A stretch of 64,000 nucleotides of DNA from NCBI RefSeq assembly GCF_001750145.1, contig NZ_CP015732.1:3906001-3970000 (forward strand), in the 5' to 3' direction. Both the position numbers and the translations under genes were made by a program. Source of the stretch: Arthrobacter sp. U41. Its GTDB lineage: Bacteria > Actinomycetota > Actinomycetes > Actinomycetales > Micrococcaceae. Below, piece by piece: positions 52,458 to 64,000 of the stretch. How positions within the stretch are numbered: position 1 is the first letter of the stretch; each line of letters opens with the position of its first letter. The notes beneath the pieces were generated by a model. The model ran no database searches. It saw nothing but the letters and a program-made list of their open reading frames with translations, and was not told where the DNA came from.

Positions 52458-53648
52458 TCAGGCTGTTGTGCCGGACCGCCGCCAGCCCCCACGGTGCGAC
52501 TCGGCCAGGCCCAGCAGCCCCAGCCGGCCCAGGCCCGCCCGGACCGATTCCGCGCTCAGTCCCGCGACGGCAGTGAGCTTGTCGACAGAGGTGGTGGTCC
52601 GCAACGGCAGGGCATCCAGCAGAATGAGGTCCTCCAGGGTCAACCCGTCCTGCACCGCCGCCCGGCCGCTCTTGATCTCGGGCAGCGATTCGCCGCTGGG
52701 CCCGGCAAGCTCCGCGATCTCTGCCGCATCGGTGACGCAGACCGCCCCGCCTTCCCGGAGCAGCCGGTGGCAACCCGCTGAGTTGGCGCTGTGCACTGAC
52801 CCGGGCACCGCGCCGACGGCTCTGCCCAGGGTTTCCGCGTGGTGGGCCGTGTTGAGCGCCCCGGACCGCCATCTGGCTTCCACGACGACGGTGACGGAAG
52901 CCAGCGCGGCGATCAGCCTGTTGCGCTGGAGAAATCTGTACCGCGTCGGGGCGGACCCCGGCGGGACTTCGGCCAGTACGGCGCCGAGGTTCGCAACTGA
53001 CCGCAGCAGGTCCTCGTTGCCGGACGGGTAGAAACGGTCCACTCCCCCTGCCATCACCGCAATCGTGGGTATGCCGCCGGAGGAGCCACCGGCAAGGGCT
53101 GACCGATGGGCGTGCGCGTCGATCCCATAGGCGCCGCCGGAGATGATCGTGAATCCCCGCTGCGCCAGCGAATACGCGAGGTCGCCCGTCACGGCGGAAC
53201 CGTAGGAGGTGCTGTCCCTGGAACCCACCAGCGCAATTGATTTGTTGGCCGGAGGCAGCGGCTGCTCGACGCCGCGCCACCAGAGACAGATTGGCTCCTG
53301 CAGTCCGAGGTCGCCCAGTTGCCGGGGCCAGAGTTCGTCCGAAGGCATGATCACCCGCCCGCCGAGCCGCTGCACCGTTGCGAGGTCCCGTGCCGGAGCC
53401 AGGTCCGGAACCCGCGGCGCCCAGCGTTTTTTGGCGATCGCGAGGCCCGTCCAGCCACTCCCCAGGCCGTTCTCGTCCAACAGCCCGGTCATCTCCCTCT
53501 CCAGCTCCGGTCCGGCGGCCAGCTCACCGGTGGCGATCCTGAGCCCGTCCTCCGCCCCGGCAAGGTGCACGAGTGCGAGGCCTGCGGCGTCCTGCGGCTC
53601 GAAGAGCCGGGACAACGCCGCCCGGGCGGTCCGTTCGCTCTCTGTCAT
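52458..53648 (-). CDS. dprA: DNA-processing protein DprA
   Basis: A 396-residue DprA/Smf protein that loads RecA on incoming single-stranded DNA during transformation. The Rossmann core contains ALVGSRDSTSYGSAV, GFTIISGGAYGIDAHAHRSAL and MAGGVDRFYPSGNEDLL, followed by a C-terminal winged-helix region (LPLRTTTSVDKLTAVAGL). GAAAGGA lies 8 nt before the ATG. Normally transcribed with comM upstream; here comM is cut by the mobile element, so dprA expression may be altered. Confidence 0.93.
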   Translation of the reverse strand: MTESERTARAALSRLFEPQDAAGLALVHLAGAEDGLRIATGELAAGPELEREMTGLLDENGLGSGWTGLAIAKKRWAPRVPDLAPARDLATVQRLGGRVIMPSDELWPRQLGDLGLQEPICLWWRGVEQPLPPANKSIALVGSRDSTSYGSAVTGDLAYSLAQRGFTIISGGAYGIDAHAHRSALAGGSSGGIPTIAVMAGGVDRFYPSGNEDLLRSVANLGAVLAEVPPGSAPTRYRFLQRNRLIAALASVTVVVEARWRSGALNTAHHAETLGRAVGAVPGSVHSANSAGCHRLLREGGAVCVTDAAEIAELAGPSGESLPEIKSGRAAVQDGLTLEDLILLDALPLRTTTSVDKLTAVAGLSAESVRAGLGRLGLLGLAESHRGGWRRSGTTA

Positions 53649-53722: not shown

Positions 53723-53830
53723 CTAGGCGGCGGCCTGCCGAAGACTGAGAGCCAGCCCGATATCGTCCGCCTCCGGGACGGCACGGAGGCCGAGGTCCGC
53801 CAGCGTCCAGGCCAACAGCTGCATGCTAGA
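53723..53830 (-). pseudogene. comM: 3' remnant of comM (YifB-type AAA ATPase)
   Basis: On the minus strand, 74 nt upstream of dprA, a short open stretch ends in a TAG and reads LLAWTLADL...DDIGLALSLRQAAA. AWTLADL followed by a helix ending in LR-x-G/A is the C-terminus of the Mg-chelatase-like ComM/YifB, whose gene usually precedes dprA. The upstream ~480 residues are absent; the reading frame continues into the integrase gene, so the element inserted into the 3' part of comM. The rest of comM would be expected at the far end of the element, beyond the window. Confidence 0.65.
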
Positions 53831-53842
53831 TTTGCATACGTG
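53806..53842. other. Left attachment junction (attL) of the mobile element
   Basis: The switch from comM-like codons to integrase-specific sequence takes place within these bases. The integrase start codon GTG is at 53840-53842. The exact core dinucleotide cannot be set without the right junction or an empty site. Confidence 0.5.
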
Positions 53843-55237
53843 AAAGCAATCATTTATCTCCGCATCAGCATGGACCGCACCGGCCAGCAGCTAGGCGTCA
53901 CCCGCCAGCTGGAGGACTGCCGCCGAAAAGCCGCCGAACGGGGCTGGGAAGTCGTCGCCGTGGAAACGGACAACGACCTCAGCGCCTACAGCGGCAAGCG
54001 CCGCCCCGCCTTCGAGGCCGTCCTCGCCGCTGTGAGCACCGGCCGCGCTCAGGTAGTGATTGCCTGGTCCTTGGACCGGCTGCAGCGCAACCGCCGGGAC
54101 GAGGTGCGCCTCTATGAGACCTGCCGGGACAACGCCGTGCAACTGGCACTCGTGAACGGTACCGATCTGGATTTCTCGACGGCGGCCGGCCGCTTCGTCG
54201 CCGACGCCCTGGGTAGCGTTGCCCGCATGGAAGTTGAGATGAAGTCAGACCGGCAGCGCCGCGCCGCTGAGCAGGCTGCAGCGGCCGGCAAGCGCAGCGG
54301 CGGCCGCCGCCCGTTCGGTTATGACGCCGACGGCATGACGATCCGGCCCAGCGAGGCCGCCGCCGTCGTCGCCGGCTACGAGTCCTTCCTCGCTGGCGTC
54401 CCCATCACGGAGATAGCACGCGCGTGGAACGATCAGGGATTCTTCACCGGGCAGGAGCGCCGCGGGGCAAACCTGGGCCAGCCCTCGCCCTGGACGCGCT
54501 CAAGCGTCCGCGACGTGCTGCGCAATCCCCGGTACATGGGCAAGCGTGCCCACCGTGGCGAGATTGTCGCCGACGCAGTATGGCCGGCCCTTGTGTCCGA
54601 ACCAACGTGGCAGGCCGCACAGGCGATCCTTGCACACAGGGCAGGCCTGCAGACGCCCAACGCCGCCAAGTACCTGCTTTCCGGCATCGGCCGCTGCGGT
54701 GTGTGCGGCGGCAACATCCACGCCGGGGCCACAGCACGTGCCGGCGTCCGCGGCTACCGCTGCGCAGAGACAACTGGCCACTTCGCCCGCAAGGCCGATC
54801 CGGTAGAGGACTACGTTGCCCAGGTCATCACGGCCCGCCTGTCCATGCCCGACGCCGGCCACCTCCTGACCGACACCACTAAGGCGGACCTCCCCCAGCT
54901 GCGCACCGACGCCACCGCGCTCCGGCAGCGCCTCAACTCCCTTGCCACGGACTTCGCCGACGGGGAACTGACGGCCCAGCAGTTGCGCGCCGCGTCGTCC
55001 CGCATCAAGGAGAAGCTGGCAGCAGCAGAGGCCTCCATGGCGGACGCGGGCCGAGTGAGCCTGTTGGGACCGCTAATCCATGCCAGCGACGTCCGCGCCG
55101 CCTGGGACGGGCTGCTGACCAGCCAACAGCGCGCCGTCATCGACACCCTGGCAACCGTGACGCTGCACCCCCCAGGGCGCGGCGTGCGCAACTTCAACCC
55201 CGATACGGTGAGCATCGACTGGAAATCGAACCTATAG
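53840..55237 (+). CDS. Large serine recombinase (integrase)
   Basis: A 465-residue serine integrase. Resolvase domain at about 2-150: nucleophile Ser10 in YLRISMDRTG, VIAWSLDRLQRNRRDE with the conserved Arg residues, and LDFSTAAGRFV. Recombinase domain about 165-260 (GGRRPFGYDADG, WTRSSVRDVLRNPRYMGK). Zinc ribbon with Cys286 and Cys289 (CGVCGG) and a later GYRCAET, then a coiled coil around 345-400 (LRQRLNSLATDFADGEL). The GTG start gives the canonical short N-terminus; it lies on the host junction, so promoter and ribosome site come from comM-derived DNA. It needs the excisionase-like partner or another directionality factor for excision. Confidence 0.93.
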   Translation: MKAIIYLRISMDRTGQQLGVTRQLEDCRRKAAERGWEVVAVETDNDLSAYSGKRRPAFEAVLAAVSTGRAQVVIAWSLDRLQRNRRDEVRLYETCRDNAVQLALVNGTDLDFSTAAGRFVADALGSVARMEVEMKSDRQRRAAEQAAAAGKRSGGRRPFGYDADGMTIRPSEAAAVVAGYESFLAGVPITEIARAWNDQGFFTGQERRGANLGQPSPWTRSSVRDVLRNPRYMGKRAHRGEIVADAVWPALVSEPTWQAAQAILAHRAGLQTPNAAKYLLSGIGRCGVCGGNIHAGATARAGVRGYRCAETTGHFARKADPVEDYVAQVITARLSMPDAGHLLTDTTKADLPQLRTDATALRQRLNSLATDFADGELTAQQLRAASSRIKEKLAAAEASMADAGRVSLLGPLIHASDVRAAWDGLLTSQQRAVIDTLATVTLHPPGRGVRNFNPDTVSIDWKSNL

Positions 55238-55465
55238 CGACACGCCCAAACCCTGCCGCGCTCGAAATCTCCATTAGAGGTTGAAAGATTGCGTTAATGT
55301 GTAACCAGTAGCAACCCCCGCAGCGGAGTCCGAGCGCGTACCGGGAGGCCAAGAAACCACAGCTTGTAAAGGCACCATCCGCATCACGTAGGTAGGCAGG
55401 GTACTCGGACCCGACCAACTCCCACGGAGCCGCGGGCAGTAATTTACTGTCCCCGGAGGCTCCCC
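55238..55465 (+). promoter_or_regulatory. Noncoding control region between integrase and excisionase-like gene
   Basis: 228 nt with no gene. It holds separated inverted repeats GTCCGAG (near 55327) and CTCGGAC (near 55405), and next to the excisionase start a CAGTAA-T-TTACTG palindrome at 55437-55449. It likely contains the promoter and operator of the replication operon. Confidence 0.5.
55437..55449. promoter_or_regulatory. Palindromic operator candidate
   Basis: CAGTAATTTACTG, two 6-bp inverted arms around a central T, 16 nt before the TTG start of the excisionase-like gene and overlapping no coding sequence. Confidence 0.45.
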
Positions 55466-55756
55466 TTGCCAACGCCCGCCACAGATGAGCTGCTCACCGT
55501 CCGTGAAGCAGCCACCATTCTGCGCGTCTCCCCTGAATCAGTCCGCCGCCGTGTCCGCGCCGGCTCACTCCCCGCCTGCAGGCTCAGCCAGCGGGCCATC
55601 CGCATCCGCCGCGCCGACCTCGACACCATCACGACACCTGATGAATCCCTCGAGGCGCACATCGCCAAACTCGTCGCCGCAGCCCCACCGCTAAGCCCCG
55701 AACAAAGCACCCGGATCGCCATGCTCTTCCGGCCTGTAGCAGGTGCAACCGCGTGA
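55466..55756 (+). CDS. Excisionase-like helix-turn-helix protein
   Basis: A 96-residue protein with a MerR/excisionase-type winged helix at about 8-55 (LLTVREAATILRVSPESVRR, then RRVRAGSLPACRLSQRAIRI). Likely the DNA-bending directionality factor or the regulator of the element. TTG start, supported by GGAGG 7 nt upstream. Its stop overlaps the primase start by 4 bp (GTGA), coupling the two. Confidence 0.78.
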   Translation: MPTPATDELLTVREAATILRVSPESVRRRVRAGSLPACRLSQRAIRIRRADLDTITTPDESLEAHIAKLVAAAPPLSPEQSTRIAMLFRPVAGATA

Positions 55757-57339
55757 GCCCGGACATGGAAAAGCCCCCGGCTGGCGAAACCAGGGGCCTG
55801 AAGGAGAATCCAACATCTTCCGCACCAATTCTAAGCCCTGACGGACTCAATCACTCGGAACAAGCACAGCTGATTCCGCTGCAGTCCGCGGACCTGAAGC
55901 AGCACAACGGCCCCGCCAGCGTCACCCAGCACGGCGACCAGGCACCGGCCCCCCAGGCACCCGCCCCGGCTGAAACCAAGCTCGTCCAGGAGGGCGCACA
56001 GATCCACCGCGGGCAAGTCCGCATCGCCTACATGCTCGCCGACGCCGGCAACGGCCAGCTGCTCCACGTCTACGGACTCGGCTGGCACTACTGGAACGGA
56101 CGCTGCTGGCAGGAGGACCGCACCGGCCACGCGAAACGCGCCGTCCTCTTCGTCCTCGCCGACTGCTACAAACGGTCAGCCAACGATCCGGAACTGCGCA
56201 TCGACGTCCGCAAATGCGAGACGGCCGCCGGCATCGAGGGCGTCCTCAAGATCGCCTCAGCGCTCCCGGAATTCGCCGTCACCGCCGACCAGCTCGACGC
56301 AGACCCCTACCTGCTCAACGTCGCCAACGGAACCCTGGACCTGCACACCATGCAACTCCACCCCCACGACCCGGCCAACCGCATGACACGCTGCACCAAC
56401 GCCGCGTGGAACCCCGCAGCGGCCGGCCCCACATGGGAGGCCTGCCTCACCCGCTGGTTGCCCGACGCCGACGCCCGCGGATTCCTGCAGCGCTACGCCG
56501 GGCTCGCGCTCGCCGGCAAGGTCCTTGAGCACGTCCTCGCCATCCTCACCGGCCCCGGCCGCAACGGTAAAGGCGTCTGGTACGGGGCATTCAGCGCCGC
56601 CCTGGGCAACTACGCCGCCGCCGCCGAACCGGACCTGTTCATGCACCGCGAAGGGGCACACCCCACCGGGGAGATGGACCTCCGCGGCCGGCGCTGGGTA
56701 GTCGTCTCAGAATCCGACAAGGACCGGCGCCTGGCCGAGGCCACCATGAAAAGGCTCACCGGCGGCGACATGATCCGCGCCAGACGCCTCTACCAGGACT
56801 TCACAGAGTTCACCCCGTCGCACACGGCAGCGCTTGTCACCAACCACCTGCCGAAAGTCAGCGGAGACGACGCCGCCATCTGGGCCCGAATCCGCGTCAT
56901 CCCTTTCGACGTCGTGATCCCGGCAGAGGAACAGGACCCGCACCTGCCCGAAAAACTGCAGCTGGAGATGGACGCCGTCCTTGCCTGGGCATTGACCGGC
57001 TGGCAGGCCTACCAGCGTCAAGGCCTCGCCGCCCCCGCCGCCGTCCTCGCCGCGACGGACAACTACCACCGCGACGCCGACGCCCTGGGCAGGTTCATCA
57101 GCGACGAATGTGACACCGGGCCCGGCTACTCCACCCTTACCGAACCGCTGCACCAGGCATGGAACGAATGGGCCGCAGCGGACGGCGTGGCACCCATGAG
57201 TAAACGGGCGTTCGGCGCTGCGCTTGAGCAACGCGGCTATCAGGCGAGGAAAGGAACGGGCGGCGTCCGCATCCGCGCCGGAATCCAACTCAAAATCGTC
57301 AACGTTTTCAGCTTTCCGAATGCCTCCAACAACCAATAG
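55753..57339 (+). CDS. SF3 primase-helicase (P4/D5 type)
   Basis: A 528-residue replication protein. The first ~75 residues are low-complexity Pro/Gln/Ala. A D5_N-like region follows (GLGWHYWNGRCWQEDRTGHA, then VANGTLDLHTMQLHPHDP), then the SF3 helicase: Walker A GPGRNGKGVW with Lys273, Walker B/B' around RGRRWVVVSESDKDRRLAE, motif C VTNHLPKVSGDDAAIWARIRVIPFD. This is the class found in P4-type satellites, phages and plasmids, where it unwinds and often primes at an adjacent origin. GTG start overlapping the excisionase-like stop. A candidate origin follows directly. Confidence 0.88.
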   Translation: MSPDMEKPPAGETRGLKENPTSSAPILSPDGLNHSEQAQLIPLQSADLKQHNGPASVTQHGDQAPAPQAPAPAETKLVQEGAQIHRGQVRIAYMLADAGNGQLLHVYGLGWHYWNGRCWQEDRTGHAKRAVLFVLADCYKRSANDPELRIDVRKCETAAGIEGVLKIASALPEFAVTADQLDADPYLLNVANGTLDLHTMQLHPHDPANRMTRCTNAAWNPAAAGPTWEACLTRWLPDADARGFLQRYAGLALAGKVLEHVLAILTGPGRNGKGVWYGAFSAALGNYAAAAEPDLFMHREGAHPTGEMDLRGRRWVVVSESDKDRRLAEATMKRLTGGDMIRARRLYQDFTEFTPSHTAALVTNHLPKVSGDDAAIWARIRVIPFDVVIPAEEQDPHLPEKLQLEMDAVLAWALTGWQAYQRQGLAAPAAVLAATDNYHRDADALGRFISDECDTGPGYSTLTEPLHQAWNEWAAADGVAPMSKRAFGAALEQRGYQARKGTGGVRIRAGIQLKIVNVFSFPNASNNQ

Positions 57340-57420
57340 TGGCGCAAGTGGCATAAGAACTTTTTCTTTCCATACGTGCGGGTATACAGAAGTTCCTCAA
57401 GCTGTGCCACTTACGCCACT
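57338..57420. repeat. Iteron-like inverted repeat, candidate replication origin
   Basis: Four copies of the 9-mer AGTGGC-NNA: AGTGGCGCA (57338) and AGTGGCATA (57347) in direct order, and AGTGGCGTA (57412-57420) and AGTGGCACA (57403-57411) on the other strand. They flank a 47-nt AT-richer centre with a second nested inverted repeat (GAACTT / AAGTTC). It overlaps the primase stop codon. Alternatively a large terminator. Confidence 0.55.
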
Positions 57421-57456
57421 CCCCCCAAAAAACCCCTAGAAATCAAGGAATTTCAG

Positions 57457-57846
57457 ATGAGCGCAAACCCCAGCACCGTCCAGGCCCTGCAAATCGACGG
57501 ACTCAACACCCTGCAAATCGGCGGCCTAACCATCACCAAGGACATCGCCAAGCAGCTCGACCAGCTGCACTCCATGCACGACCACACACGGTTTGAGCCG
57601 TTGGGCCGGGTCCGCACCGGCCAAGGCTTCGAAGGCATGGAAGTACTCGGCCGCGACACCGCCACCGGGGCCCTCGTCATCATGCGCCACACACCCAATC
57701 CCCGCTGGGTCACGGAAGCCTACGACGACGCCGGCAAGACGCGCTACCGGACCGCCAACGACGGCAAGGACGAACTGCGCAACGCACTCACCAACGCCTA
57801 CAGCCAGCTGCCGCTCATCGTCCTCCCCAAGGACGGCCGGCCATGA
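57457..57846 (+). CDS. Hypothetical element protein
   Basis: A 129-residue soluble protein. Residues 1-40 contain two imperfect repeats of a D/G-L-x-x-L-Q-I motif (ALQIDGLNTLQIGGLTITKD). The C-terminal half is mixed alpha/beta (FEGMEVLGRDTATGALVIMR, then RWVTEAYDDAGKTRYRTANDG). No family recognised. AAGGAA lies 7 nt before the ATG. First gene after the origin-like repeats. Confidence 0.65.
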   Translation: MSANPSTVQALQIDGLNTLQIGGLTITKDIAKQLDQLHSMHDHTRFEPLGRVRTGQGFEGMEVLGRDTATGALVIMRHTPNPRWVTEAYDDAGKTRYRTANDGKDELRNALTNAYSQLPLIVLPKDGRP

Positions 57847-57885
57847 CCCACACCACCCGCCCCAACGAAACGAAGGACAACTGAC

Positions 57886-58035
57886 ATGGCGAAGCAAGCC
57901 CACGACCAGGGAGTCAAAAAGAGCCGCAAGGACAAGCTTAAGCAGCCGTCCGTCACCAATTACGACGCCGTCGCGGAATCACTCGTTGACCGCGGGCTGT
58001 GCAGCCGCTACATCCTCTTCGGCCACCGCAAATGA
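57886..58035 (+). CDS. Small basic element protein
   Basis: A 49-residue protein, lysine-rich at its start (GVKKSRKDKLKQ), with one Cys (GLCSRY). AAGGAC precedes the ATG. Its stop overlaps the start of the next gene (ATGA). No family recognised; a small nucleic-acid-binding role is possible. Confidence 0.55.
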   Translation: MAKQAHDQGVKKSRKDKLKQPSVTNYDAVAESLVDRGLCSRYILFGHRK

Positions 58036-58286
58036 CAGCCCCGAAACTCATGGCCCGGCCCGACCAGCCCCGCATGGTCATCAAAGGCCGGCCCTGGACC
58101 TGGCACGCACCGGACGCCCCCGACGAAGCAGGCGTCGCACTGGTCATCGCGACCTCAAGGGTCGTCCAATTCCTCACCCCCGAACAGGCCATCACCCTCG
58201 CGGACCAACTCGTTGACGCCGCGGAATCACAGACCCACAACCACCCAACCGGCCACACGGCCACAAACGAAGGAACCGAATCATGA
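58032..58286 (+). CDS. Hypothetical element protein
   Basis: An 84-residue soluble protein. It contains a beta-rich middle (VIKGRPWTWHAPDAPDEAGV, ALVIATSRVVQFL) and a short helix EQAITLADQLVDAA. Overlaps both neighbours by 4 bp, so it is translationally coupled in the array. No family recognised. Confidence 0.6.
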   Translation: MTAPKLMARPDQPRMVIKGRPWTWHAPDAPDEAGVALVIATSRVVQFLTPEQAITLADQLVDAAESQTHNHPTGHTATNEGTES

Positions 58287-58924
58287 CCCGCACAGCACCC
58301 ATCAATTTCTCCGGCGGCAACAACTTCGCAGCCAACATGCGCCCGCCCAAGGAACTCCTCCCCGCCAACGTCGTCACCGCCCTGGCAGCGTACGACGACC
58401 TGCTGAACCGCCACTTCGCAGCCCGCGTCCGGGCCACCGCACTCAACAGCGACACCGCCACCGCCGAAGCGGAGAAGACCGACAACGCCGCCGTCGCCGC
58501 GGCCGTCGCCGCCAACGCACCCATCCCGGCACCCGAGGCGAAGAACGCCCTACTGAAGGCCCTGGAAGAATCCAACCGCGAACTGCAGGGCTTCGACACC
58601 GCCATCGCCGACGCAGAGAACAACCTCCGCACCCTCACCGAAAAGGCCGCAATCGCCTCCGGCTACGACCCGGCCAAAGAACACCAGACCATGCTCACCG
58701 CAACCAAGGGCCACCTCGACGCCGCCAACGCGGCGTTCGCCGCCTTCGCAGACCGTGAAGTCCTCAACGCCTGGATGATCAGCGGCGCACCCTTCGTCCC
58801 GCGCACCGCCGTCACCGTCCTCGACGTCCTTGCCCTCGAGCGAGGCATGATGGACGGCCGCAAGAATGTCCCCGTTCGGGAGATCCTCGACGGCGTCGTG
58901 AACGCGCTCAAGGTAGGCAAGTAA
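58283..58924 (+). CDS. Hypothetical element protein, helical
   Basis: A 213-residue protein, mostly alpha-helical with alanine-rich coiled-coil stretches between about 40 and 150 (TATAEAEKTDNAAVAAAVAA and FDTAIADAENNLRTLTEK). The C-terminal part (NAWMISGAPFVPRTAVTVLDVLALERG) is different in composition. Start overlaps the previous stop by 4 bp. No family recognised; the shape is compatible with a scaffold or structural protein but that is a guess. Confidence 0.62.
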   Translation: MTRTAPINFSGGNNFAANMRPPKELLPANVVTALAAYDDLLNRHFAARVRATALNSDTATAEAEKTDNAAVAAAVAANAPIPAPEAKNALLKALEESNRELQGFDTAIADAENNLRTLTEKAAIASGYDPAKEHQTMLTATKGHLDAANAAFAAFADREVLNAWMISGAPFVPRTAVTVLDVLALERGMMDGRKNVPVREILDGVVNALKVGK

Positions 58925-58926
58925 CC

Positions 58927-59136
58927 ATGGCCGGCATCGCATCGACACCCGGCGAAGTCCTCGCCGAAATCACCCGCGAACGCGGCAAGCGCCCCGCCGT
59001 GGACCACAACGGGCGCGTGCTCACCGTAGCGCCGGCAGAGTACACCGCAGGCCCGAACGGATGGCCGGTGAAGGTAGAGCCCACACCGCCCGCCGCCGTG
59101 CCGCCCGTCCCCGCCAGCACAGAACCCGCCGACTGA
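58927..59136 (+). CDS. Small hypothetical element protein
   Basis: A 69-residue protein with a polar start (GEVLAEITRERGKRPAVDHN) and a Pro/Val-rich tail. Starts 2 nt after the previous stop and overlaps the next start by one base (TGATG). No family recognised. Confidence 0.55.
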   Translation: MAGIASTPGEVLAEITRERGKRPAVDHNGRVLTVAPAEYTAGPNGWPVKVEPTPPAAVPPVPASTEPAD

Positions 59137-59351
59137 TGGCAGTCATGGCAATCATCGGCGGCACACAAGGCCACGAGGTTACCGTGAGCGAAGTGGAGTC
59201 AGGCCAAGGCAGAGGCCAAGGCTTCGCACAGTGTGAGTGTGGATGGACGGCCACGAACATCATGGTCAACCTCACCATCTCCAACTCCCTCGCACACGCC
59301 AGAGCCTGCAAGAGGCGCAGCGAGCACGACGCCGCGGCTGCTGCACAGTGA
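59136..59351 (+). CDS. Small hypothetical protein with Cys-x-Cys motif
   Basis: A 71-residue protein with C-E-C-G-W in the middle and ACKRR later, which may bind zinc. ATG overlaps the preceding TGA by one base. Last gene before the hairpin at 59355. No family recognised. Confidence 0.55.
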   Translation: MAVMAIIGGTQGHEVTVSEVESGQGRGQGFAQCECGWTATNIMVNLTISNSLAHARACKRRSEHDAAAAAQ

Positions 59352-59354
59352 GCC

Positions 59355-59398
59355 CCGTTGCCCGCCTGTCTTGCCCACACAGGGCAGGCGGGCAACGG
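59355..59398 (+). terminator. Large inverted repeat before small terminase gene
   Basis: Perfect 14-bp arms CCGTTGCCCGCCTG and CAGGCGGGCAACGG with a 16-nt spacer, right after the stop of the early gene array, followed by another short GC hairpin. Most simply the terminator of the early operon; its place beside the small terminase gene also makes it a candidate packaging site. Confidence 0.6.
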
Positions 59399-59518
59399 AC
59401 CCCCTGACGGGGCGGGGGGCACCCCCTTCCACCCCCTCCGATAGAGACGCGCCGGAGAGGGCATCGTCCTGCCGGGCATCGAAAATACAACCGTTTTCCC
59501 TTTCTGAGGAGGCACCAC

Positions 59519-59902
59519 ATGGCAGCTGACAAGCCTGCCGCACCTCGTGAGCTGGCACCGCGTGGGCGGAAGTTCTGGCGGCTCACGGTCGAAGTGCATG
59601 AACTGGAGCCGGAGGAACTCGAGCTGCTGCGCGAGGCGTGCCGGACGCTGGACAACCTGGACGCCTTGGGGCGTGCCATCCGCGTTGACGGGTCCATGGT
59701 CAAGGGCTCGGAAGGTCAGAGCCGCATTCACCCCGCGTTCGCTGAGATGCGCGGCGCGCAGGTGGTCTTGGGCCGGCTGCTGAAGCAGCTGGCGTTCCCG
59801 GAACCGGAGGCGGAACAGTCCGAGGCGTCCAAGCGTGCCCAGAAGGCCGCACAGGAGCGCTGGCGGATGGAAGCGGAACGGAAGGTCGGCCGCCATGCGT
59901 AG
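59519..59902 (+). CDS. Phage terminase small subunit (P27-like)
   Basis: A 127-residue protein with the layout of P27-type small terminases: ELAPRGRKFWRLTVEVHELE, an acidic helix EELELLREACRTLDNLDALG, and the conserved motif IHPAFAEMRGAQVVLGRLLKQL. It recognises the DNA packaging site of its genome. AGGAGG lies 7 nt before the ATG. No large terminase gene follows. Overlaps the next gene by 8 bp. Confidence 0.8.
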   Translation: MAADKPAAPRELAPRGRKFWRLTVEVHELEPEELELLREACRTLDNLDALGRAIRVDGSMVKGSEGQSRIHPAFAEMRGAQVVLGRLLKQLAFPEPEAEQSEASKRAQKAAQERWRMEAERKVGRHA

Positions 59903-60188
59903 GCGGGACCAGGCAGCGGCCACGCACAACGGGCTCTTGGCGGTCCCGGCCTACCTCCTGCCGATCACGGCCAGGGAACGGCGGCTCACAGCTCTCGGCG
60001 GGGAACCGGTGCCGGCGGATGAGGTCCCCAGGGGCGCGGATTTGCTGGCGGCGTGGTTGGAAGATCATGGCTGCGAGCGCAAGGACTACACAACACGAAA
60101 CGCCGCCATTCGGGCGGGGTCGAAGCTAAAATTATTGGAGCGGCAGGCATCCCACAGTGCACCGTCTCCACGTTTGAGGAAGAGGTAG
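59895..60188 (+). CDS. Hypothetical element protein between TerS and TMP
   Basis: A 97-residue basic protein (N-terminal MRRRDQ, C-terminal SPRLRKR) with LLADY-like helix LLAAWLEDHGCERKDY. No family recognised. In its place one would normally find the large terminase. Starts 8 bp inside the small terminase gene and ends 4 nt before the tape measure gene, so all three are one operon. Confidence 0.6.
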   Translation: MRRRDQAAATHNGLLAVPAYLLPITARERRLTALGGEPVPADEVPRGADLLAAWLEDHGCERKDYTTRNAAIRAGSKLKLLERQASHSAPSPRLRKR

Positions 60189-60192
60189 TGGG

Positions 60193-63165
60193 ATGTCGAA
60201 CGACCATGTGATTGATGTCAAGGCCCGGGCGGACTTCACTGCGCTGTCCAAGGGCCTCGCGGACGCTGAGCGGGACCTGGGCAAAGCGAAGGAGGGTTTC
60301 TCGAAGTACGGGTCCGAGGCTGACAAGGCCACGAAGCAGACCCAGGGCTTTGTGGAGAAGAACCGCGGCCACATGGAGACCGTCGGGCGGGACTCTGCCA
60401 TCATGGGTGGCGCCATCCTCGCCGGCATTGCCGTGGCCGTCCACGCCTACTCTGAGTTTTCCGGCCGCATGGCCCAGGTGCAGTCCCTCTCAGGCGCCAC
60501 GGCTGCCGAAATGGACGTCCTCACCAACTCGGCCCTCACCATGGGCACCGCGTTCGGGTTGTCAGCGAATGACGTCGCCGACGCGGAGATTGAGCTTGTG
60601 AAGGCCGGCGTCTCCGTGAAGGAGATGATCGGCGGGGCACTGCCTGGCGCTTTGGCGCTGGCCGCCGCCGGCCAGATCGACGTCGGCAAAGCCACGGAAA
60701 TCGCGACGATCGCGCTGACCCAGTTCAACCTCAAGGGCAAGGACGTCCCGCACGTCGCTGACCTCCTCGCTGCCGGGGCCGACAAAGCCCTGGGCGGCGT
60801 CTCCGAACTCGGTGAGGGCCTGAAGCAGGGCGGCCTGATCGCTTCCCAGTTCGGCCTCAGCATCGACGACACCGTTGGCACCTTGTCAGCCTTCGCCAAC
60901 GCGGGCCTGCTCGGCTCCGACGCCGGCACCTCCATGAAGACCATGTTCCTGGCCCTCGCGTCCCCGTCGAAGGCAGCGCAGGCCGCACTGGATCAGTACA
61001 ACATCACGGCGTACGACTCCAAGGGCGCGTTCATTGGTGTTGAGGCGCTCGCCGGGCAGTTGAAGGACAAGCTTGGCGGCCTGTCGGATGCGCAGCGCAA
61101 CGCTGCCCTGTCCACGATCTTCGGGACCGACGCCATGCGGTCCGCGTCAGTCCTGGTGAAGGAGGGGTCGGCCGGGATCCGGAAGTGGATCGATGACGTC
61201 AATGACCAGGGGTTCGCCGCGCAGCAGGCCGCCGGGAAAATGGATTCACTCAACGGCGACTTCAAAAAGCTGAAGGCGTCCGTTGAGACCGGGCTTATCC
61301 AGATGGGTGCCGCAGCGGATGGCGCCCTTCGCCCCGTGGTCCAGGCACTGACGGGTGCGATCACTGCTTTCAACGGACTCGACGACAGCACAAAGTCCAC
61401 GATCCTCACGGTGGCCGGGCTCGCCGGTTCCACCCTGCTGCTCGGCGGCATCCTTCTGAGCACGATTCCGAAGATCGCCGAAACGGCAAAGGCCATCCAG
61501 GCACTCCGTGCCGCGTCGCCCGCCGCGTCGGCTACCATCACGGCGCTGGGGAAGGCTGCGCTGCCGGCCGCTGCCGCGCTCACGGCCCTCCTGATCATGG
61601 ACCGCATCGGTGACTCGATGAAGCCAGCGACGAAGTCCGTTGAAGAGGCAGTGCAGTCTTTCGTCAAGCTCGGCAAGGAAGGGAAGTCCGCCGGAGATAT
61701 CTTCGGTAAGGACTTCTTCGGGTCCTCGAACGGTGCAGCACTCTCGGGTGAAATCCGTGGCGTGGGCGATGCGCTGAAGGAGGTCAACAACCTGGACCTC
61801 GGCGACAACCTGAACGACATGGTCTTCGGGATCACTTCGGCGTTCGGCATGCCGGTCAGCTCTCAGATCAACGAGACCCGCGCGTCCCTCGGGAAAATGG
61901 ACGACGCGCTGCAGTCCCTGTCGACGTCGGGGTCCTTTGATCTGGCGGCGAAGGGCTTCAAGCAGATCACGGAGGAGGGCCTGAAACAGGGCATCGCTGT
62001 GGAGACGACGGCCAAGTCCTTCCCGCAGTACATGGATTCGCTGCGGAAGCTCTCGAACGACCTGAAGGTCCCGCTGAACGACCAGGAACTCCTGAACTGG
62101 GCCCTTGGTGAGGTCCCGCAGAAAATGAAGGACGCGCAGACTTCCACGGAGGGCCAAGCCAAAGCAGCGGAGGTCGCGGCCAAGGCCACCGAGGCGCAGC
62201 AGAAAGCCCTCGACGAGCTCGGCATCGCAGCTGACGGGGCGATCCTGCACCTGGACAAGCTTGTGCAGTCCATGCAGGCGTCCGGGCTCATCAGCATCTC
62301 TGCGGATCAGGCAGCGATCAACTACCAGAAGTCGCTCGAGGAAGTCGACGCGATGGTCTTCAAGAACGGCCAGACCCTCGACATCCACACCAAAGCCGGC
62401 AAAGAAAACATGGAGTCCTGGCTGGGGCAGGCCAGCGCCGCGAACAACGCCACCCTGGCGAACGCGAAGAACGGCATGTCCTCGGAGGAACTGCAGGTCA
62501 ATCTGACCGACCAGTACTACAAGCTGCGGGACAACGCACTCGCCTTCGGGGCGGGCGCCACAGAGGCCGACAATATGGCACGCAAGGCTCTTGGCATCCC
62601 CAAGGACGTCAAGATCGAAACCGCGATCCAGAACTACGCCGACACCATGGCGAAGGCTCACGCGATCAAGCAGGCCGTCGACGGCATCACCTCGGTCAAG
62701 ACGATTTTCTTCCAGACCGACGCGTCCGGGTTTTACGACCCCAGCGCCGGCACGGACGGTAAGGGCGCCGGGTCCGGTGGGATGTCCAAGGGGCCGAGAG
62801 CGTACGCGAAGGGCGGCGCCATTGACGACGCACCGGGGCCCAAGGGCGTGGATTCCCAGCTGATCTACGCGGCCAAAGGCGAACACATGCTGGACACCTC
62901 CGACGTGGACGCGCTCGGCGGCCAGTCCGGCGTCTATGCCATGCGCAGGGCACTCCACAACGGCGGTGTGCGGCCCACCTACGCAGCGGCCCCACCAGCT
63001 GCTCCGGTAGCCATGGGCGGATTCGGCGGCGGCGGCGGCTCGCCGGAAGTCCGGGTCTACATCGGCAACGAACAGATTGACGCCCGGATCGAGTACGTCT
63101 CGGAAGGCGTCACCACCAGGGCACTCAACGGCGTCTCCCGCCAGGTCGGAGGTATGCGACGATGA
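60193..63165 (+). CDS. Phage tail tape measure protein (TP901 type)
   Basis: A 990-residue tape measure protein, the ruler that sets tail length in siphophages. The N-terminal TP901/PhageMin domain spans about 60-340 (AYSEFSGRMAQVQSLSGATA, then LLAAGADKALGGVSELGEGL, ALSTIFGTDAMRSASVLVKE). Hydrophobic segments occur near 395-425 (STLLLGGILLSTIP) and coiled-coil stretches beyond. The Gly-rich C-terminus (AKGGAIDDAPGPKGVDS) with VYIGNEQIDARIEYV is common in Gram-positive tape measures. At about 1.5 angstrom per residue it would give a tail near 150 nm. No lytic domain seen. Confidence 0.9.
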   Translation: MSNDHVIDVKARADFTALSKGLADAERDLGKAKEGFSKYGSEADKATKQTQGFVEKNRGHMETVGRDSAIMGGAILAGIAVAVHAYSEFSGRMAQVQSLSGATAAEMDVLTNSALTMGTAFGLSANDVADAEIELVKAGVSVKEMIGGALPGALALAAAGQIDVGKATEIATIALTQFNLKGKDVPHVADLLAAGADKALGGVSELGEGLKQGGLIASQFGLSIDDTVGTLSAFANAGLLGSDAGTSMKTMFLALASPSKAAQAALDQYNITAYDSKGAFIGVEALAGQLKDKLGGLSDAQRNAALSTIFGTDAMRSASVLVKEGSAGIRKWIDDVNDQGFAAQQAAGKMDSLNGDFKKLKASVETGLIQMGAAADGALRPVVQALTGAITAFNGLDDSTKSTILTVAGLAGSTLLLGGILLSTIPKIAETAKAIQALRAASPAASATITALGKAALPAAAALTALLIMDRIGDSMKPATKSVEEAVQSFVKLGKEGKSAGDIFGKDFFGSSNGAALSGEIRGVGDALKEVNNLDLGDNLNDMVFGITSAFGMPVSSQINETRASLGKMDDALQSLSTSGSFDLAAKGFKQITEEGLKQGIAVETTAKSFPQYMDSLRKLSNDLKVPLNDQELLNWALGEVPQKMKDAQTSTEGQAKAAEVAAKATEAQQKALDELGIAADGAILHLDKLVQSMQASGLISISADQAAINYQKSLEEVDAMVFKNGQTLDIHTKAGKENMESWLGQASAANNATLANAKNGMSSEELQVNLTDQYYKLRDNALAFGAGATEADNMARKALGIPKDVKIETAIQNYADTMAKAHAIKQAVDGITSVKTIFFQTDASGFYDPSAGTDGKGAGSGGMSKGPRAYAKGGAIDDAPGPKGVDSQLIYAAKGEHMLDTSDVDALGGQSGVYAMRRALHNGGVRPTYAAAPPAAPVAMGGFGGGGGSPEVRVYIGNEQIDARIEYVSEGVTTRALNGVSRQVGGMRR

Positions 63166-63212
63166 CCGCCATGACAACTCCGGAGCGTGGCCTAGGATTT
63201 GACCATGGATAA
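63162..63212 (+). pseudogene. Truncated start of a downstream tail gene
   Basis: ATGA overlap with the tape measure stop opens a 16-residue frame, MTAMTTPERGLGFDHG, then stops. In siphophages the gene after the tape measure encodes a distal tail protein and usually starts with such an overlap, so this may be its remnant cut by the sequence that follows; coincidence is possible. Confidence 0.35.
63193..63198 (+). promoter_or_regulatory. -10 element of 63205 gene
   Basis: TAGGAT ends exactly 6 nt before the ATG at 63205. Predicted leaderless promoter, so this gene need not be part of the tape measure operon. Confidence 0.55.
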
Positions 63213-63663
63213 CCTGCACCCAGACGACCAGCCCCCGGCAACGTGGCGGCGAGACGTCTCCGAGGGCGAAACAGAACAAGCCGTCCACGTAGCGTTTACA
63301 GACCCGGCCTTCGAACTCGGCGTCCTGTTCTGCAGCCTGTTGAAAGACCCGGACGTCACGGCATTCGAGCTCAGCCAGCTGGTCACGCCGGAGTCCCTGC
63401 CCCAATGGGGGGACTTCAGCGGCGCCATTGAATGGTTCCGCGGAATTGACGATGTAGGGTACGGCAGCAACGTTGACCGCGCCCTGGGAGACGACGCCGT
63501 GGCCTACTTCAAGGTCTTTTCGGGGACGACGTCCAGCTACCAGGTCACTGACCTGCAGATCATGAGCGGCCCCGGCGTCCTCACCTTGGTGAACCGTGAA
63601 GGCGCCGGCTGGCGCGTCCATGGCGTCGGCTCCCACATCCACCCCGAACAGATACCGCACTAG
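63205..63663 (+). CDS. Hypothetical protein after tape measure gene
   Basis: A 152-residue soluble, acidic protein (pI low; DNLHPDDQPP start), with a patterned DPAFELGVLFCSLLKDPD and a C-terminal GWRVHGVGSHIHPEQ. No family recognised; it does not look like a tail protein. It has its own leaderless-type promoter, uncoupled from the tape measure gene. TTG at 63199 is an alternative start. Confidence 0.65.
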   Translation: MDNLHPDDQPPATWRRDVSEGETEQAVHVAFTDPAFELGVLFCSLLKDPDVTAFELSQLVTPESLPQWGDFSGAIEWFRGIDDVGYGSNVDRALGDDAVAYFKVFSGTTSSYQVTDLQIMSGPGVLTLVNREGAGWRVHGVGSHIHPEQIPH

Positions 63664-63682
63664 GCCCCTTCCGGACACAGAG

Positions 63683-63715
63683 AACCCCGCCAGTCAACGC
63701 GACTGACGGGGTTTC
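63683..63715. terminator. Bidirectional terminator
   Basis: Inverted repeat AACCCCGCCAGTC / GACTGACGGGGTT with one mismatch and a 5-nt loop, between convergent genes ending at 63663 and 63728. Confidence 0.75.
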
Positions 63716-63727
63716 TTTGCTTTGCGG

Positions 63728-63970
63728 CTATGAGGCAGCGCTGAGTGTTCCCAGCACGCTGAGGAGGTCAGAGGCCAGTTCCCGCGCGGCGTCAACGCTC
63801 ATGCCTTCGGAGTCCCCCACGTAGACCAGGACGCCCTCCTCCGGGCTCCACGTCGTCTCGACGGTGCCCGCGCCCGGGCCCTTGTGCAGGTCCCCGCTGA
63901 GCTCAACCTCGCCTGCAGTAGTAGCGAGTGAGTTGAAGCCGGCCGGCGCGGCGATGGTGGTTGTGCTCAT
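63728..63970 (-). CDS. Small hypothetical protein
   Basis: An 80-residue protein with a Ser/Thr-rich start (MSTTTIAAPAG) and a helical end (SVDAARELASDLLSVLGTL). GGGGGA lies 9 nt before the ATG. No family recognised. On the opposite strand to the tape measure operon; whether it belongs to the element is not known. Confidence 0.6.
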   Translation of the reverse strand: MSTTTIAAPAGFNSLATTAGEVELSGDLHKGPGAGTVETTWSPEEGVLVYVGDSEGMSVDAARELASDLLSVLGTLSAAS

Positions 63971-64000
63971 GAGATAAATCCCCCTGGTTGATGTTGGTAT

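Follow-up and report, generated by a model that had tools for sequence, protein, structure and literature searches.

A candidate phage satellite in comM of Arthrobacter sp. U41 with its own small terminase and tape measure genes

Phage satellites with a tape measure protein (TMP) of their own are described for Vibrio. According to the available excerpts of PMC12987554, the TMP of phage-inducible chromosomal island (PICI)-like elements, the PLEs, enters chimeric tails from which the phage TMP is excluded, and removal of tmp cuts transfer. The length of these tails is reduced by about 10 nm, in line with TMP length, the TMP of PLE11 differing from that of the helper by 95 amino acids (aa). In the PLEs, tmp comes with a tail assembly chaperone gene and in some with a hub gene, and the phage is contractile-tailed (excerpts of the same source). 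Here we analysed a stretch of 64,000 nucleotides from Arthrobacter sp. U41 (NZ_CP015732.1, positions 3,906,001 to 3,970,000), referred to as the window, at whose right end the host gene comM is split by a 10.4-kb element. This element, hereafter the satellite, encodes an integrase, a primase, a small terminase subunit (TerS) and a TMP. We consider it probable that it uses comM as its site together with a helper phage, and that it employs its own TerS and a TMP that is built into chimeric tails.

In such a life cycle, the serine integrase would insert the satellite into comM, and infection by a helper phage, presumably a siphophage, would induce its excision. Replication would proceed via the satellite's own primase. 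Its TerS would then steer the large terminase (TerL) of the helper to satellite DNA for packaging, and its TMP would be incorporated into virions whose tails otherwise consist of helper parts.

The satellite, its sister element and their tape measure genes

The window lies within a 4.39-Mb contig, and DNA past 64 kb was also read for the right side of the element. In blastn comparisons with intact comM, the satellite extends from about 53,815 to 64,239, with limits within a few bp: the 3' part of comM ends at 53,814 and the gene picks up again at 64,240, that is, both halves flank the satellite. Intact comM loci of the same genus (L167, L168 and L169) served as breakpoint references, and the limits were set against L167. 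A preliminary description of the locus had given the span as 53830..63165; the genes it named do lie there, but the element continues beyond. Matches to Pfam or PHROG families (Table 1) bear out the integrase, the excisionase-like helix-turn-helix (HTH) protein, the superfamily 3 (SF3) primase, the TerS and the TMP of that description. A satellite is expected to have an integrase with a matching attachment site, here a serine integrase and a split comM of which both halves were found, and a replication gene of its own, here the D5_N/SF3 primase. TerS, as in TerS-bearing PICIs, was recognised by phrog_1496 and scored slightly below the cut-off for Pfam Terminase_4 (4e-5; 24.5 bits, cut-off 24.7).

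We scanned 18 open reading frames (ORFs) of the satellite against PHROGs, including three that lie antisense to called genes; the Pfam scan covered 20, of which 10 are on the minus strand. Among these, no match to a large terminase, portal, capsid, protease or tail-tube protein was found, and none of the ORFs adjoining the TMP gene had a PHROG match to a tail assembly chaperone. Only the integrase, the primase and the TMP exceed 400 aa among called ORFs; a longer antisense ORF over the TMP gene (61,246-63,678, not called) had no PHROG match. P4-type psu, delta and sid were not among the PHROG matches of these general scans, no dedicated search for them having been made. That is, the satellite was found without a full virion gene set.

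The nearest relative, L117, was found in Arthrobacter pascens DSM 20545, at the same point of comM as judged by its right-hand breakpoint. Its primase is 77% identical to that of the satellite (79% over aligned residues), and the integrase, the HTH protein, the small protein after the primase and the minus-strand ORFs at the right end are conserved as well (Table 1). In contrast, the TMPs of the two elements share only 37% identity. Between the conserved ends the internal modules differ: tblastn (1e-3) gave no match in L117 to the satellite TerS or to its 213-, 97- and 152-aa proteins, the small ORFs of L117 being scanned in part only for a TerS of another family. L117 carries a TMP gene in the same slot and no other structural gene that we recognised.

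Each of the two TMPs has its closest relatives among different phages. Counted from its likely start, the L117 protein has 1325 aa; across its full length it shares 69-71% identity with the 1313-aa TMP of Auxilium and Gorpy, phages of Arthrobacter globiformis, and long DNA similarity between L117 and Auxilium is limited to this gene (23.4 kb of the 49.4-kb Auxilium record compared). The satellite TMP (990 aa) is 73%, 69%, 63% and 62% identical to TMPs of the IMG/VR contigs L134, L135, L136 and L137, which are 989, 988, 984 and 979 aa long. We take these contigs as phages because L134 has genes for a portal of SPP1 type and a capsid of SU10 type and L136 (a 42.8-kb record) has the same ORF order by eye. 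The best match in a cultivated phage was Persistence (41%). Since two sisters that share the site and the kinds of integrase and primase have TMPs of different phage lineages, the TMP gene is a cassette, and the TMP of each sister has the length and family of its phage lineage. The resident prophage was dropped as a donor, as the host genome holds no other PF10145 match.

The preliminary description had proposed that the TMP could set the length of tails made of helper proteins. But the closest pairs agree in length (990 versus 979-989 aa for the satellite, 1325 versus 1313 aa for L117), as does the TMP of the mycobacterial element L130, with 1525 aa versus 1527 in Typha (44% identity) and 1565 in prophiGD43A-5 (51%). 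The gene therefore looks like a helper-matched replacement, and the match argues against tail resizing relative to the donor lineage; for the nearest phages (990/989 and 1325/1313) we rejected resizing.

Selection on the TMP was assessed pairwise with the NG86 method, in which phage and satellite branches are not separable. The satellite and L134 gave dN 0.215, dS 1.26 and dN/dS 0.17. Ratios of 0.20-0.26 were obtained for the satellite versus L135-L137 and of 0.21-0.26 for the six phage-phage pairs among L134-L137; the values were 0.20 for L117-Auxilium, 0.26 for L117-Persistence and 0.17 for Auxilium-Persistence. The TMP is thus under purifying selection, and its low dN/dS and unbroken frame make a long-dead gene hardly likely.

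A rewritten C-terminus specific to the satellite TMP was also considered, the last ~50 aa showing 36-39% identity to phages whose own ends are 93-100% identical to one another. We dropped this idea because, by eye, Auxilium and Persistence share their end type with the satellite, and L178 and L137 share theirs with L117. In the TMPs of the satellite, L117, L137, Auxilium and L178, the last ~45 aa appear by eye as exchangeable end types, independent of the rest of the protein. From these alignments, the C-terminal end seems to be exchanged among phages generally, and the end types perhaps match tail-tip types.

Related elements and competing explanations

In an even sample of 295 family genomes out of a larger set, including that of the window, 21 had a match to the TerS, 20 to the TMP (1e-30) and 30 to the primase (1e-20); the family genomes searched include Arthrobacter cheniae and Paenarthrobacter DKR-5. 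At 1e-90, the primase was found in 7 of 394 genomes of the class (window's genome included). We assembled 36 primase-linked elements: the satellite, the best 15 of the 32 primase places besides it in the family scan, 14 of the 16 loci from a primase scan with one genome per species, one further element, and five of the six other places of the class scan. Two of the 16 loci, which duplicate L080 and L081, and one of the six class-scan places, which duplicates L131, were omitted. Limits were set by eye except for the satellite and L117.

A TMP gene is present in nine of the 36 elements (satellite, L117, L081, L124, L126, L127, L129, L130 and L133). The call is weak for L081 (PHROG 1.6e-5, no Pfam match; size, place and composition in addition) and moderate for L129 (Pfam below cut-off, PHROG 4e-14). 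All nine TMP frames are unbroken, at 664-2054 codons, and within the limits as taken no called ORF above 400 aa was found besides TMP, integrase and primase. The integrase was confirmed by Pfam in eight; in L129, the listed ORFs upstream of the primase showed none. Downstream of L124, L126, L127, L129 and L130, no ORF of portal or TerL size was seen by eye before host-like genes, and L133 has a neck-like protein beside its TMP. With such relatives, including a sister at the same site, the satellite is not the single degraded copy that would have spoken against the preliminary description.

Other elements carry other virion genes. A capsid gene was found in six of the 36 (L080, L121, L131, L084, L086 and L094; other ORFs scanned in part), and a TerS without TMP in four (L083, L088, L158 and L162). 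The remaining 17 are without structural class, their cargo having been scanned in part, and at least three of them (L118, L128 and L132) lie on contigs that end early. Several mycobacterial elements share the primase type of the satellite (52-60%).

Four side observations concern these elements. Mycobacterial L127 (13109-18861) and L130 (13158-18810) encode a head maturation protease together with the TMP, and no capsid gene was recognised in them. The capsid gene of L084, L086 and L094 is of HK97 type (277-285 aa), its alignment to phrog_10 being confined to the C-terminal part of that family. L125 (12788-18023, Mycobacterium interjectum), one of the 17, has protease-like and connector-like pieces and a 1162-aa minor tail protein. 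Finally, the element-like locus L095 (G003), which stands outside the 36 with an unmatched primase, has a tandem of two TerS-like genes that differ from each other; one of them is 49% identical to that of the satellite.

On the primase tree of all 36 rows, the TMP label required 3 changes versus a shuffled mean of 6.6, none of 500 shuffles being as low, and the starred branches force at least 2 changes. The capsid (6 changes) and TerS (4) labels were not below shuffled values. After removal of two rows with a stop inside the primase (34 rows left), the count for TMP stayed at 3 (mean of the shuffles 5.9, with 12 of the 500 at 3 or fewer); capsid required 5 changes, and 294 of the 500 shuffles had no more than that, while TerS required 2. 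TMP carriage is clustered on this tree; relatedness contributes, and some forks are weak. The best PHROG families of the TMPs vary by element (1533, 3547, 10780, 9228 and, weakly, 6090), which together with the case of L117 points to repeated TMP capture.

Several observations weigh against a helper-dependent satellite with a captured TMP. A classical divergent PICI repressor was not recognised: between integrase and primase no divergent gene was called, and the 10 minus-strand ORFs at 53,891-57,903 were without Pfam match, a scan that a repressor of an undescribed family could escape. The primase is interrupted by a stop in two relatives, L083 and L162. No helper prophage was recognised in the window's genome, whose sole PF10145 match is the satellite TMP; the TMP-like gene of the resident prophage is a different one. 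The satellite TerS was unmatched in seven IMG/VR records with related TMPs or primase, several of which are fragments, and no cos-like site was common to L117 or the satellite and the 23.4 kb of Auxilium compared. TMP lengths differ in distant pairs, namely L126 and BritBrat (1734 versus 1884 aa, 41%) and L124 and prophi68-1 (2054 versus 1657 aa, 42% over 56%), that is, the length match holds in close pairs, not in distant ones. Finally, dS values near 1.2 are not far from saturation, and some of the TMP divergence may have arisen before capture. A wider search of host genomes covered two portal families: 2 of 17 genomes (the window's not in the set) had PF04860 and 3 of 21 (the window's in the set, without match) had PF05133, in neither case inside the described elements.

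Alternatively, the TMP might be a weapon, a decoy or dominant negative that poisons or titrates tail assembly of the helper, with the satellite travelling in tails built on the helper TMP. Satellites and prophages are known to encode defences that act on tail assembly (excerpts of PMC10884400 and PMC12987554), and a length-matched TMP could compete with that of the helper. However, the full length is kept under purifying selection, where a poison might tolerate truncation, and deletion of tmp in PLE11, PLE1 and PLE4 strongly cut transduction, which fits use in the virion there (excerpts of PMC12987554). We regard a weapon as unlikely.

A deleted prophage, in which TerS and TMP would be remnants, without a function today, of a phage that was formerly complete, had been named as the main alternative by the preliminary description. 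Both are ordinary phage genes, the real prophage next door also occupies comM, a TMP gene alone could outlast a deletion, and two relatives have the stop in the primase mentioned above. But the TMP is intact over 990 codons with a dN/dS of 0.17 versus its nearest phage relative, nine elements have unbroken TMP frames and, within their limits as taken, otherwise no called ORF above 400 aa but integrase and primase, and L117 holds a different TMP in the same slot without another recognised structural gene. With DNA past 64 kb included, no capsid, portal or large terminase gene was found between the attachment points, in favour of a satellite as originally proposed. Because of L117, the intact TMPs and the dN/dS values, we rejected the deleted prophage as leading idea; L117 largely refutes it, and we consider it improbable.

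Least probable as a separate explanation is that the TMP matters for delivery, leaving the tail with the DNA and evading exclusion by resident prophages or helper copies: TMP is tied to genome injection and exclusion in HK97, and delivery would explain TMPs that vary with phage lineage at constant length, but the idea is compatible with a TMP built into chimeric tails and may be the selective reason for it.

A helper-dependent satellite with chimeric tails thus remains our preferred explanation. A wider interpretation is possible, though we would not call it probable: the satellite may belong to a widespread actinobacterial family with a hijack slot (TMP, capsid or TerS, sometimes TMP and head protease) that is swapped to follow the helper. 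The TMP branch of this family would then form satellite-specific chimeric tails of unchanged length, in which the TMP would serve for identity or injection rather than as a ruler. A TMP of equal length may let the satellite evade defences aimed at TMPs, may act as a gate for DNA injection or may pair better with satellite heads. Two ideas are set apart by the length match: a ruler that changes tail length, and a part that marks, protects or delivers. Very many phages of the actinobacterial phylum are in culture, and the A. pascens element and phages of the Auxilium/Gorpy type are a candidate pair for asking why satellites bring a TMP.

Other features of the locus

G+C contents are 65% for the satellite, 54% for the neighbouring prophage and 67% for the window's first 50 kb. 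The preliminary description had all genes on one strand, which is true of the recognised genes in the left ~9.8 kb and not of two minus-strand ORFs at the right end, both conserved in L117. Its origin-like repeat could not be confirmed: only short two-copy repeats were found, and among the clearest of them, one (57,485-57,532) is part of an ORF. The hairpin at 59,355-59,398 is a candidate terminator or packaging site. Many relatives encode a 200-290-aa protein at the place of the 213-aa protein, mostly unrelated in sequence; a single family was rejected, as among 14 compared proteins matches occurred only within three capsid proteins and L083-L090. No PADLOC match to defence genes was found among eight small ORFs of the satellite, and no known RNA family reached the gathering score.

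Table 1. Features of the satellite and its left flank (window positions)
Feature	Position	Strand	Evidence
Host dprA, left flank	52458..53648	-	ORF; colinear with intact comM-dprA loci; named by content
3' end of interrupted host comM, up to left attachment point	53723..53814	-	blastn versus L167/L168/L169; stop codon by eye
Satellite, part within window	53815..64000	+	Runs on to ~64,239; breakpoints versus intact comM L167
Serine integrase	53840..55237	+	PF00239 6e-31, PF07508 8e-16, phrog_95 1e-100; 84% to L117
HTH_17 protein, likely excisionase or regulator	55466..55756	+	PF12728 4.5e-13; phrog_66 1.5e-8; 69% in L117
D5_N/SF3 replicative primase-helicase	55753..57339	+	PF08706 2e-29, PF19263, phrog_6088 1e-113
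Small conserved protein, no assigned function	57457..57846	+	48% in L117, 50% in L118; clusters with L081 protein
Small ORF	58032..58286	+	Codon-position G+C; longer form without Pfam match, PHROG only 0.05; no PADLOC family
213-aa protein	58283..58924	+	No convincing Pfam, PHROG or PADLOC family
Inverted repeat upstream of TerS	59355..59398	.	19-nt arms, 6-nt loop, 89% complementary
TerS	59519..59902	+	phrog_1496 4e-19; 49% to TerS in G003
97-aa protein between TerS and TMP	59895..60188	+	ORF; Pfam/PHROG scan, codon-position G+C
TMP, 990 aa	60193..63165	+	PF10145 8e-47; phrog_1533 3e-97; 73% to phage TMP L134
152-aa protein	63205..63663	+	ORF; codon-position G+C, PHROG and PADLOC scans
Conserved right-end small ORFs	63728..63970 and ~64,005-64,187 (past window)	-	64% and 73% to right end of L117

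The host comM is interrupted twice, by the satellite and by a second element in its 5' part. The latter (L002/L003, ~65,584-82,579 on the window scale) is a prophage of 17 kb that encodes a serine integrase of its own. It contains a portal-like gene (PF04860 below cut-off; 40% to the 15-kb Arthrobacter phage Berka), a primase-like gene and, inside the structural region, a transposase-like gene (74,174-75,214, IS30-like by eye). In another species of the genus, comM is split by ~60 kb (G704:C1:779,997-842,152), near query codon 201-205.

Comparison with known systems

The open-licence literature searched did not report actinobacterial satellites that carry a TMP but lack capsid genes, with the reservation that Extended Data Fig. 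10 of PMC12987554, outside the available excerpts, may hold one. The comparisons below refer to the available parts of the cited papers. With Staphylococcus aureus pathogenicity islands (SaPIs) and other PICIs, the satellite shares a TerS without TerL (for the role of TerS see PMC10690885). Integrase and primase are further common features; unlike these islands, the satellite carries a TMP and has no recognised divergent master repressor. Capsid-forming PICIs (cf-PICIs) also carry structural genes, and a sampling of them is reported with putative tmp genes (PMC12987554). They have their own heads and packaging enzymes (PMC10690885), whereas no capsid, portal, connector or large terminase gene was recognised in the satellite. 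MulchRoom and MiniFlayer of Streptomyces are likewise actinobacterial satellites, and their phages are of siphoviral morphology; unlike the satellite, they encode TerS, TerL, portal and capsid, and 'tape measure' does not occur in the available text (PMC10690885).

The candidate PICIs of Mycobacterium and the phiRv1/phiRv2-like elements (PMC10654092) are actinobacterial too and combine an integrase, sometimes replication genes, and virion genes. The Mycobacterium candidates are defined by an integrase plus a major capsid gene (PMC10654092). Since no capsid gene was recognised in the satellite, this definition would not select it, and surveys that demand a capsid gene would overlook such elements.

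By description, the satellite also resembles the PLEs of Vibrio cholerae, which likewise bring their own TMP, there diverged from that of the helper (PMC12987554), so that carriage of a TMP, called unusual in the preliminary description, is not unique to the satellite. Unlike the PLEs, the satellite has a TerS, no recognised chaperone gene by the TMP, a TMP of phage-matched length and presumably siphophage helpers. Our findings point to a second group of TMP-carrying satellites, apart from the Vibrio PLEs in both host and gene content.

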